Shown here: piece after piece, positions 25,040 through 38,747 of the stretch
Layout: every line of letters starts with the position of its first letter
How positions within the stretch are numbered: position 1 is the stretch's first letter
Source of the DNA: Ruania alba
Lineage (GTDB): Bacteria; Actinomycetota; Actinomycetes; Actinomycetales; Beutenbergiaceae
Assembly (NCBI RefSeq): GCF_900105765.1
Contig: NZ_FNTX01000001.1
Span: 682,001 to 746,000, forward strand
Direction of reading: 5' to 3'
Length of the DNA: 64,000 nt
Made by a program: the position numbers and the translations under genes
The notes under the pieces: model-generated
What the model saw: only the letters and a program-made list of their open reading frames with translations
Databases searched by the model: none
What the model was told of the DNA's origin: nothing

Positions 25040-25993
25040 GTGACCACCACACCTGACGCCGGCGCACGGCTCGCCCTCGTGACCTGCTCCGACCTGCCCG
25101 ACCTGGACCCTGAGGACGCTCCACTGATCGGCGCTCTCGCCGAGCGGGAGGTGGCCGCCGACGTCGTCGTGTGGGACGACCCGGAGGTGGACTGGTCGGT
25201 CTACGACCTAGTGGTGCTCCGCTCGGTGTGGGACTACACCTCCCAGCGCAAGAAGTTCCTGCGGTGGGCCGGTTCTGTGCCGCGCCTGGTGAACCCGCCG
25301 AACGTGGTGCGCTGGAACATCGACAAGCACTACCTGCAGGCCCTGGAGGACCACGGGTTGCCGGTGGTGCAGACCACCTGGCTCGAGCCGCACCACGGCT
25401 ACGACAAGCGCGGACTGCACAACCGCTTCCCGGCGCGCGAGGACTTCGTCATCAAGCCCGCCGTCGCGGCAGGGTCCGAGGGTGCCGGCCGGTACACGGC
25501 CACGAACGCGAACTCCCGCCGGTACGCCATCGAGCACGCCAAGCGACTCATCGACGACGGGCACAGCGTGATGGTCCAGCGGTACATGCCGGAGGTGGAC
25601 TCGCACGGCGAGATTGCGCTGGTCTTCTTCCACGGCACCTTCTCGCACGCGATGCGCAAGGGCGCCATGCTCACCGGCATCGACGACCCGAACGCCTTCC
25701 AGGTGGAGGAGATGGAGGCCTACAAGGCCACCCACGCCGAGATCGAGGCCGCGCAGCAAGCACTCGCGTTCGCCCGCGCTCGGATCCCCGGCCGGAACAT
25801 CTCCAGCAGGCCGCTGCCGTACGCCCGCGTGGACCTGATTCCTTCCGGGCGTACTCCCGTGGTGATGGAGCTCGAGCTCGTCGACCCTGCCCTGCACTGC
25901 ACCCTCGGCCGCGACGCGATGGCCCGGTTCGCGGACTCCCTCGCCGCCGAGATCCGGATGGGGCCGGACTCGAACAACATCGATCTCGCCTGA
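25040..25993 (+). CDS. ATP-grasp enzyme, DcsG-like
   Basis: 317 residues. It matches the ATP-grasp group that includes O-ureido-serine cyclo-ligase DcsG of D-cycloserine synthesis: LALVTCSDLPDLDPED, VWDDPEVDWSVYDLVVLRSVWDYT, FVIKPAVAAGSEGAGRY and a metal-binding end VVMELELVDPALH. The start GTG lies six bases after TACGGT, so the mRNA is probably leaderless. No other cycloserine genes are nearby, so the role is more likely another ligase or a resistance-type function; unknown. Confidence 0.8.
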   Translation: MTTTPDAGARLALVTCSDLPDLDPEDAPLIGALAEREVAADVVVWDDPEVDWSVYDLVVLRSVWDYTSQRKKFLRWAGSVPRLVNPPNVVRWNIDKHYLQALEDHGLPVVQTTWLEPHHGYDKRGLHNRFPAREDFVIKPAVAAGSEGAGRYTATNANSRRYAIEHAKRLIDDGHSVMVQRYMPEVDSHGEIALVFFHGTFSHAMRKGAMLTGIDDPNAFQVEEMEAYKATHAEIEAAQQALAFARARIPGRNISSRPLPYARVDLIPSGRTPVVMELELVDPALHCTLGRDAMARFADSLAAEIRMGPDSNNIDLA

Positions 25994-26077
25994 TGGTCTG
26001 TGCCCGGTGCGCTAGGACCTCGCGCGAATAGGAGCACGGGCATGGAGGCACCGGTTCCCGCTGTTAGCATGTGCACC

Positions 26078-26134
26078 ATGTCAGCCGCTTCGTGCTCGGC
26101 CGCTTGTGCGGCAGTGACCAGGACGTCCCGCTAG
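26078..26134 (+). CDS. 18-codon leader peptide upstream of the MFS exporter
   Basis: A short frame encodes MSAASCSAACAAVTRTSR. Its ATG lies exactly seven bases after TAGCAT (26065-26070), the same leaderless spacing seen at many genes of this window. Its stop codon sits in the loop of an 11-bp hairpin (26121-26147). This is the layout of ribosome-controlled attenuators before drug-resistance genes. Function is inferred; no homolog is recognised. Confidence 0.5.
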   Translation: MSAASCSAACAAVTRTSR

Positions 26135-26147
26135 CGGCGGGACGTCC
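26121..26147 (+). promoter_or_regulatory. Attenuator-like hairpin overlapping the leader stop codon
   Basis: GGACGTCCCGC pairs perfectly with GCGGGACGTCC around a TAGCG loop that contains the leader peptide's TAG. No U tract follows. A ribosome on the leader would open it. Alternative pairing GGCCGCT (26099-26105) with AGCGGCC (26202-26208) is possible. Confidence 0.5.
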
Positions 26148-26217
26148 GGCTCTCAGCACTACCTCACCCTGGAACGTCCAGTCGCTTCGTGATCCATCCG
26201 GAGCGGCCCTTTGTGCT

Positions 26218-26244
26218 GCTCGTCATTCTTCAGAGCGACGGAGC
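26218..26244 (+). promoter_or_regulatory. Hairpin hiding the MFS ribosome site
   Basis: GCTCGTC can pair with GACGGAGC (one bulged G), which would cover the GGAG ribosome site 6 nt before the MFS start codon at 26250. Confidence 0.4.
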
Positions 26245-26249
26245 AATCG

Positions 26250-27662
26250 ATGCGTTCAGGCATTTCCCCTTCTACCCGCGTGCACAGTCCTACCCCTGTG
26301 CGCGCATGGCTCGTGCTGTGCGCGATGTCCATGCTGCAGTTCTTCATCGCGGTCGACGTGACCGTGGTCAACATCGCGCTGCCCTCGATCGGCGCGGATT
26401 TCGGCGTCGAAGGCCACTCCCTGACCTGGGTCGTGGTCGGCTACACCATTACCGGCGGCGGCCTGCTGATGCTCGGCGGCCGGCTCGGTGACCTTCTCGG
26501 CCGCCGCCACACCCTGCTGGTCGGCACGACTCTCTTCGGCGCGGCTTCCCTGCTGGCGGGCCTGGCCCCGTCCTTCCCGGTCCTGGTCGCCGCGCGCCTG
26601 CTCCAGGGTGCCGGCGAGGCCATCGCGCTACCCGCGGCGATGGCGACCATCGTGCTGCTCTTCCCGGAAGGCCCGCGCCGGTCGCGCGCCTTGAGCGTGT
26701 GGGCGGCCGTGGCCAGTTGCGGACTGGTTCTCGGGTTCGCCTTGTCGGGGATCATCACTGCGCACCTGGGCTGGCGCTGGATCTTCCTGATCTCGGTGCC
26801 GTTCATCCTGGTCGTGATCGTGGCCACGCTCCTCCTGGTCCCGGCCGACCGGCCGGTACCCCGCGAGCGGGTCCGCCTCGATCTCCCGGGCTCGTTCTTG
26901 CTGACAGCGTGCCCGTTGCTGTTCGTCTACGCCGCGGTCGAAGCGGGCGAGCCGGGGACCGCTCCGTGGGTGAGTGTGGCCGCGCTGGTCGGCGCGGTGC
27001 TGGCCGCCGTCGGGTTCGTGCGGGTCGAGTCGCGGTCGCCGAACCCGCTGGTCCCGCTGACGTTCTTCGCGGACCGCGCTCGGCTGCGGGCGAACCTGAC
27101 GACGATGCTGCTCAGCGGTGCGTTGTCGACCTCGTTCCTGCTGTTCACCTTCTACCTGCAGGACAGGCTCGGTATCGGGCCACTGGGGGCGGGCCTGACG
27201 ATGCTGCCCCTGGCCGTAGCGCTGATCGCGGCATCGGTGCTCGTGCCCCGACTGTTGGGACGCTGGGGCGCACGGGTGTGCGTGCTGGTCGGGCTCGCGG
27301 CCGCTGCGGGCGCGATGGCGGTGGTCGCGTTCGTGGCCGTCCTGGGCGGCGGGGCGGCATGGCTGCTCCCGGCGATGCTGCTGATCGCAGCGGGCATGGG
27401 CTTCGGAATCGTGGGTCTGCAGTACATCGCGGTCAGCGGGACCACCGACGAGGACGCCGGGATCGCCTCCGGGGTCCAGCGAGCAGCAGACCAGCTCGGT
27501 GGAGCAAGCGGTGTGGCCATCTACGTAGGTCTCGGGTTCGCCCCGGCCCTGCACGCCGGTGACCCGTTCGTCATCGCGGCGGTACTCGCCGTCGCCGGGC
27601 TGATCGTCGGTGCGATGGTCATCTCCCGCTCGCCGGGCACCGTGGAGGGGCAGGCCGGGTAG
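26250..27662 (+). CDS. MFS drug exporter (DHA2/EmrB-QacA type)
   Basis: 470 residues from ATG 26250 (GGAG six nt upstream). MFS signatures are present: MLQFFIAVDVTVVNIALPSIG (helix 1, motif D1), GGRLGDLLGRRHTLL (motif A) and RLLQGAGEAIALPAAM (motif B). About 12-14 helices. It should expel drugs or other small molecules by proton antiport. The 180-nt leader with a small peptide and two hairpins suggests induction by a translation-blocking compound. No regulator gene is adjacent. Confidence 0.9.
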   Translation: MRSGISPSTRVHSPTPVRAWLVLCAMSMLQFFIAVDVTVVNIALPSIGADFGVEGHSLTWVVVGYTITGGGLLMLGGRLGDLLGRRHTLLVGTTLFGAASLLAGLAPSFPVLVAARLLQGAGEAIALPAAMATIVLLFPEGPRRSRALSVWAAVASCGLVLGFALSGIITAHLGWRWIFLISVPFILVVIVATLLLVPADRPVPRERVRLDLPGSFLLTACPLLFVYAAVEAGEPGTAPWVSVAALVGAVLAAVGFVRVESRSPNPLVPLTFFADRARLRANLTTMLLSGALSTSFLLFTFYLQDRLGIGPLGAGLTMLPLAVALIAASVLVPRLLGRWGARVCVLVGLAAAAGAMAVVAFVAVLGGGAAWLLPAMLLIAAGMGFGIVGLQYIAVSGTTDEDAGIASGVQRAADQLGGASGVAIYVGLGFAPALHAGDPFVIAAVLAVAGLIVGAMVISRSPGTVEGQAG

Positions 27663-38079: not shown

Positions 38080-38688
38080 TCAGCGCGAGATTCCACAGGT
38101 GCTCGCCTCGCCGGCGATAGTGGCCAACTCATCCTGGATGAAGTAGAGCGCCCAGGTGACATCGCTGTCAACGGGCTGGTGGAACAGGTGGAACGCGAGC
38201 CCGTCGATCAGTGCGTGAAGTCGACGTGCCAGTGATGCCGCATCTGGCGTCCCAGCCTGCCCTGTCAGCATCTCGACGAGGCGGGCGCAGAGTCCGGCGA
38301 GCTGCCGATGTGCATCGAGGCTCACCTGCTGTAGGCCCGGCACTGCGGCGCGTTCCGCAAGGAGTGCGAGGTTGACTTCATATTCGGCCCGACTGTCCGG
38401 GTCGAGGGGGAGAACACTCTTGATGATCGCCAGCGCATATTCGCGTGGGTCATCGTGGGGTGCGGTGGCGAGAAGCCGCTCGGTCACGCGTTCCATCATG
38501 AGCTCGGCGGAGAACTGCACGAGTTCCGAACGCGTCGGAAAGACGTGCCTGAGGGAGCCGACGACGACGCCCGCGCGCTCGGCGACTGTGCGAACCGACA
38601 CCGCCGAGATGCCCTGATCGAGGATCACCTGCCACACCGCCTCCGCAAGCTGAGCTTTGCGTGCATCCCTGTCCATTCTTCGAGGCAT
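38080..38688 (-). CDS. TetR-family transcriptional regulator with three local operators
   Basis: 202 residues. HTH: ISAVSVRTVAERAGVVVGSLRHVFPTRSELVQFSAEL, then a helical ligand domain (DPREYALAIIKSVLPLDPDSRAEYEV), of the BetI-like group. ATG 38688 is chosen because TAGCAT (38700-38695) ends seven bases before it; the -10 box touches the palindrome TAGCACG-GT-CGTGCTA, so it is autoregulated. Confidence 0.88.
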   Translation of the reverse strand: MPRRMDRDARKAQLAEAVWQVILDQGISAVSVRTVAERAGVVVGSLRHVFPTRSELVQFSAELMMERVTERLLATAPHDDPREYALAIIKSVLPLDPDSRAEYEVNLALLAERAAVPGLQQVSLDAHRQLAGLCARLVEMLTGQAGTPDAASLARRLHALIDGLAFHLFHQPVDSDVTWALYFIQDELATIAGEASTCGISR

Positions 38689-38698
38689 GGGCACATGC

Positions 38699-38747
38699 TA
38701 GCACGGTCGTGCTACACTGCGTGAATTATAGAAGCACACTTGTGCTA
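38699..38747. promoter_or_regulatory. Two TetR operators in the TetR promoter region
   Basis: TAGCACGGTCGTGCTA (38699-38714, perfect 7-bp arms) and AAGCACACTTGTGCTA (38732-38747, one mismatch), 33 bp centre to centre. A plus-strand TACACT (38713-38718) could start a divergent transcript. Confidence 0.65.

Follow-up and report, generated by a model that had tools for sequence, protein, structure and literature searches.

Organization of the locus

The window, that is the whole analysed stretch of 64,000 nucleotides of Ruania alba DNA, carries a gene for an LmrA-like drug exporter that is preceded by a short open reading frame and by RNA segments able to pair with one another in alternative ways. 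The features are given by their positions in the window, all on the forward strand (+).

26062..26070, +: extended -10 promoter TGTTAGCAT, predicted to give a leaderless transcript whose 5' end coincides with or adjoins the leader ATG
26078..26134, +: leader ORF MSAASCSAACAAVTRTSR with its stop, 18 codons, TAG stop at 26132-26134
26087..26093, +: leader codons 4-6, GCTTCGT, complementary to ACGGAGC (26238-26244) of the exporter Shine-Dalgarno (SD) region, a possible second lock
26121..26131, +: stem segment 1, GGACGTCCCGC, identical with leader codons 15-18, pairs with segment 2
26137..26147, +: stem segment 2, GCGGGACGTCC, together with 26133-26136 pairs alternatively with segment 3
26171..26189, +: stem segment 3, GGAACGTCCAGTCGCTTCG, pairs with segment 2 or 4
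26199..26207, +: stem segment 4, CGGAGCGGC, pairs with segment 3 or 5
26213..26224, +: stem segment 5, GTGCTGCTCGTC, pairs with segment 4 or with segment 6/SD
26230..26244, +: segment 6 with the exporter ribosome-binding site GACGGAG (26237-26243)
26250..27662, +: LmrA-like DHA2-type MFS drug exporter, 470 aa (MFS_1, E 6e-53)

The leaderless 18-codon frame seven bases after TAGCAT that an earlier note on this DNA had described is present, with TAGCAT at 26065-26070, a 7 nt spacer and the leader ATG at 26078. The encoded peptide contains two Cys and is rich in Ala and Ser. A further TAGCAT occurs on the reverse strand of the window (38686-38700, -), six bases before the ATG of a regulator-like gene with an apparently leaderless start. 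Among NCBIfam models, the exporter is best matched by the lincomycin efflux protein LmrA (NF000031), with 454.8 bits and hence below the cut-off of 850. The gene just upstream (25040-25993) encodes an ATP-grasp relative that scores 246 bits against the D-cycloserine synthetase DcsG model, below the cut-off of 360. Rfam covariance models gave no match in 26000-26300, either at the gathering threshold or at E values up to 1.

Conservation and mobility of the leader-exporter unit

A single protein search of Actinomycetota with the exporter alone provided 80 loci, and the leader precedes the exporter in every one of them; 79 leaders were recognised by script and the last, MSAASCSAACPAVTETSR, by reading. 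The loci belong to Brevibacterium, Brachybacterium, Nocardia, Rhodococcus, Streptomyces, Nonomuraea, Pseudonocardia and others, and the unit spans dozens of genera of soil bacteria. The leader was also found in two genus relatives. The earlier note had named a lack of conserved peptide or stems at orthologous loci as refuting its idea. That refutation did not come about: the peptide, the promoter, the hairpin that loops out the stop codon and the alternative stems all proved to be conserved, with compensatory changes. Moreover, a DNA pattern composed of the leader end and the hairpin, and built without reference to the exporter, matched 11 sites in 395 class-wide genomes, all 11 of them just 5' of this exporter; the control, a reversed pattern, matched once. 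Two weak additional hits of a covariance model (L111 and L112) lack the hairpin core and were taken as chance.

In Streptomyces, the leader was found at 13 of 15 matches to the LmrA model, all 13 being at least 68% identical to the exporter studied here, and it was absent at the remaining two, which are about 50% (at most 51%) identical. The leader thus marks one exporter subfamily. The R. alba genome itself holds a second copy of leader and exporter (G000:C1:1473540-1475130), the exporter being 96% identical; its neighbours are aconitase-like and S9-peptidase-like genes. The exporter is closer to that of Brevibacterium renqingii (94% identity) than to that of the congener G007 (79%), which points to horizontal transfer.

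Exporters with 61-70% identity were found on plasmids of Enterobacter hormaechei, Klebsiella, Salmonella, Brevundimonas and Escherichia coli, some of them of hospital and farm type. The E. hormaechei copy lies between two IS26 elements with armA and blaTEM-1 nearby, and this Enterobacter stretch is matched at 99.9% by Klebsiella and Salmonella. In the copies from Enterobacter and Brevundimonas, MISLDSESAAAAAASAVTRTLR is preserved along with the stop-in-loop hairpin, and E. coli pN56338-1 keeps SSAAAVTKTLR with the hairpin. Among 5426 complete E. coli genomes, the Enterobacter-type copy was absent, and a query with the pN56338-1 copy returned only edge matches of about 83 bases. A 61%-identical exporter with the same leader, located between IS26 copies of a multiresistance IncHI2 plasmid (Salmonella NZ_CP022454, Enterobacter NZ_CP135271, Klebsiella NZ_MF156708), bears no resistance-gene flag in the plasmid tables shown. 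On a 7.6-kb IncQ1 plasmid of E. coli (NZ_CP010245) the exporter and the SD region are kept and the leader is lost, so that control of this exporter must differ.

Evolution of the leader peptide

The sequence TANNNT stands exactly 7 nt 5' of the ATG in all 80 scored leaders, as against 2.3% of 5271 control ATGs, and in most of the 80 it is preceded, one base upstream, by TG at -16/-15. An SD sequence is missing from 77 of the 80 leaders. Codon differences between the loci are synonymous in 69% of cases in the leader frame versus 9% and 7% in the other two frames, and every gap in the aligned leaders is a multiple of three. In 78 sequences A11-A12-V13 is invariant although the third positions of these three codons vary, while both Cys positions are variable, many loci having Ala, Ser, Phe or Pro there instead. 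Judged by its evolution, the leader is a translated leaderless peptide. We predict A-A-V-T as its putative arrest motif.

Mutually exclusive stems between leader and exporter

The perfect 11-bp hairpin previously described for this region is formed by 26121-26131 and 26137-26147, and its 5-nt loop, TAGCG, holds the leader stop codon. A hairpin over the exporter SD was likewise found in the minimum free energy structure, in which GCTCGTC (26218-26224) pairs with GACGGAGC (26237-26244). Both hairpins of the earlier description are therefore present, but they are part of a larger set, comprising stems 1:2, 3:4 and 5:6 and the alternatives 2:3 and 4:5. The RNA from 26080 to 26275 folds 3.5 sd better than shuffled sequences, and the GGAG of the exporter SD is conserved in nearly all loci.

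Stem statistics were derived from 78 aligned leaders. Stems 1:2, 3:4 and 5:6 together are paired in 94.7% of cells and include nine pairs in which both partners have changed (0 of 500 shuffles); the alternatives 2:3 and 4:5 are paired in 94.2%, with seven such pairs. Stem 1:2, the stop-codon hairpin, covaries: both-side changes were observed at 5 of 10 pairs, one of which is UA in 32, CG in 21 and UG in 12 sequences. Alternative 2:3 is paired in 95% of cells, again with both-side changes at 5 pairs. Stem 4:5 is paired in 92.9% and stem 3:4 in 97.6% of cells, the latter with little covariation. The ON stems (2:3 and 4:5) exceeded control (a) only moderately. Cognate duplexes were more stable than swapped ones for 1:2 (z -6.1), 2:3 (z -3.2), 5:6 (z -2.4) and 4:5 (z -2.0); no such advantage was seen for 3:4 or for combinations of non-neighbouring segments. 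Since the loci are related by descent, and kinship inflates every covariation measure, we regard the covariation and duplex tests as indicative.

Modelled effect of a ribosome on the leader

We modelled the refolding of the RNA under ribosome footprints at different leader codons. With a footprint at codon 13, the probability of stem 1:2 fell from 0.83 to 0.01 and that of 2:3 rose from 0.08 to 0.75; concomitantly, 3:4 decreased from 0.64 to 0.18, 4:5 increased from 0.27 to 0.66 and 5:6 decreased from 0.55 to 0.24. No such flip was seen when the footprint was placed at codon 1, 5 or 8 or on the stop codon. By computation, the stems are mutually exclusive and switchable by a ribosome on the leader. 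Because the first hairpin arm consists of the last four leader codons and the modelled refolding requires a ribosome on codon 13, the switch appears to depend on the ribosome.

A stalled ribosome would, as proposed earlier, free the exporter SD. In the models the stems flip at codon 13, but the SD opens little as long as no ribosome covers codons 3-6 as well. The probability of an unpaired SD was 0.05 in the free RNA, 0.14-0.17 with footprints at codons 1-8 and 0.22 in the best modelled state, a ribosome at codon 13 with a second ribosome. With the codon-13 ribosome alone, most of the SD stays bound to leader codons 3-6 in the thermodynamic models; pairing of the SD was mainly with codons 2-7 (0.71 in the free RNA, 0.76 with the ribosome at codon 13). 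Release of the SD is accounted for only in part, since codons 3-6 are able to pair with it too. The two sequences formerly suggested to pair between leader and pre-SD region, GGCCGCT (26098) and AGCGGCC (26202), are present, but the strongest modelled leader/SD pairing is that of codons 3-6 with the SD.

The codons 3-6/SD pairing is possible in 84% of cells, with no covariation seen in the aligned loci. The codons used at positions 2-7 promote pairing with the SD, as was the case in 66 of 77 loci, and avoid arm 1. Furthermore, the rare Ala codon GCT (5% in exporter genes) accounts for 58 of the 70 cases with Ala at codon 4. As the chain of stems alone flips and yet leaves the SD masked in the folding, we infer that codons 3-6 probably act as a second lock, which would be released by a further ribosome, either following the first or initiating.

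Proposed mode of regulation

The conserved peptide, promoter and hairpins, together with the modelled refolding, support the view of the earlier note that this region is a ribosome-controlled attenuator. We consider it likely that the attenuator, which is probably translational, renders the exporter inducible by drugs acting on the peptidyl transferase centre. In the absence of drug, ribosomes would complete the 18 codons and depart, stems 1:2, 3:4 and 5:6 would form, and both segment 5 and leader codons 3-6 would mask the exporter SD. In the presence of drug, a ribosome would halt while reading the Ala/Ser-rich leader; the likeliest position places Val13 in the P site, so that Ala12 is the penultimate residue. 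Occupying segment 1, the halted ribosome would allow 2:3 and then 4:5 to pair, so that segment 5 leaves the SD, and a following or initiating ribosome on codons 1-6 would remove the second mask and permit translation of the exporter.

Chloramphenicol and linezolid arrest ribosomes at a penultimate Ala and less often at Ser or Thr (PMC8987054), and phenicol- or oxazolidinone-like inducers would best match this rule. The relationship to LmrA suggests lincosamides as inducers; S. lincolnensis LmrA itself is reported to be regulated by GlnR (PMC8546547), which was counted as a point against.

Alternative explanations

Since no stem has a consistent U tail, we favour translational control over transcription attenuation, in which 1:2 (or 4:5) would be a terminator and a stalled ribosome would create the antiterminator, the mode known from lmrC or bmrCD. 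Tails with 5 or more T out of 9 follow 1:2, 3:4, 4:5 and 5:6 in 1, 8, 1 and 0 of 78 loci, respectively, and these loci thus yielded no intrinsic terminator with a consistent U tail on any leader stem. Actinobacterial terminators can lack a U tail, so termination of that kind is compatible with these counts; stem 1:2 is moreover very GC-rich, and a terminator-like match lies at 26201-26221. In Streptomyces, the ABCF genes lmrC and are5sc do have attenuators that act on transcription (PMC8546547, PMC12421871). Nevertheless, 4:5 forms in the stalled state and would then switch the exporter off, and the conserved 5:6/SD arrangement would be left unexplained, which makes this reading rather improbable. 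A serious rival, although we judge it unlikely, relies on the codons 3-6 lock alone: a ribosome stalled early, within codons 1-8 and not at codon 13, would cover the anti-SD in codons 3-6 and uncover the SD. The higher SD accessibility modelled for such footprints (from 0.05 to 0.14-0.17) and the codon choice in favour of the anti-SD agree with it, and LSAP drugs stall ribosomes at the start codon of the are5sc and tiaA leaders in Streptomyces (PMC12421871). It needs neither the invariant A11-A12-V13 nor the covarying 1:2/2:3 switch, which an early stall leaves unchanged.

The two Cys and the abundance of Ala and Ser would fit an attenuator that senses starvation for Cys, Ala or Ser, of the trp/his or polycysteine type. 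However, neither Cys codon is kept throughout, each being replaced in many loci, whereas A-A-V persists, and what is regulated is in every case a drug exporter and never a biosynthetic gene; a starvation attenuator or a cysteine-responsive leaderless uORF is therefore very improbable and was rejected. GC-rich DNA readily forms hairpins, which could speak for chance hairpins beside a spurious short ORF, or for an unrelated mRNA-stability element. This is hardly credible in view of the conserved peptide and promoter spacing, the covariation and the retention on plasmids of other phyla. As an account of the hairpins and the ORF, chance is refuted, since all 80 of 80 homologous loci have conserved them.

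Returning to the drug-inducible attenuator, a more specific version is tentative: codons 11-13 (A-A-V) might arrest drug-bound ribosomes and trigger a three-hairpin domino, with the codons 3-6 anti-SD lifted only by loading of a second ribosome, and the unit might be a mobile inducible resistance module, still working after transfer from Actinomycetota to Proteobacteria, that represents a new family of arrest peptides.

Comparison with known systems

The class of mechanism is known from the erm, cat, cmx and lmrC attenuators. Our literature searches returned the principle and neither the exact leader peptide string nor the RNA element, and the leader family, its arrest motif and the RNA appear undescribed in the sources searched. 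If our interpretation is true, a widely conserved, undescribed family of leader peptide and RNA would join drug-inducible resistance, and an uncharacterised exporter already carried by Enterobacter, Klebsiella and Salmonella on multiresistance plasmids would be silent until a ribosome-targeting drug is present. LmrA (NF000031) is the best-matching curated exporter model, yet its 455 bits fall below 850.

The chloramphenicol-inducible cat and cmlA genes and the actinobacterial cmx resemble the present locus in having a short leader before the resistance gene, which in cmlA and cmx is an MFS exporter. An Ala-penultimate arrest is plausible, but peptide and exporter differ. In the erm attenuators (ermC and the six-segment ermA type), the first arm is supplied by leader codons, and the mutually exclusive stems that follow it in a chain end on the SD of the resistance gene, as they do here. 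Unlike in erm, the leader of our system is leaderless, carries Ala-Ala-Val in place of macrolide motifs and has additional complementarity to the SD, and the controlled gene encodes an exporter and not an rRNA methyltransferase. A summary of ermC is available (PMC10219788). The Streptomyces genes lmrC, are5sc and tiaA are alike in their ribosome-mediated attenuation by peptidyl-transferase drugs (PMC8546547, PMC12421871); they differ in their very short, unrelated uORFs (MLV, MVGDDDISG), in the proposed transcription terminators and in encoding ABCF proteins.
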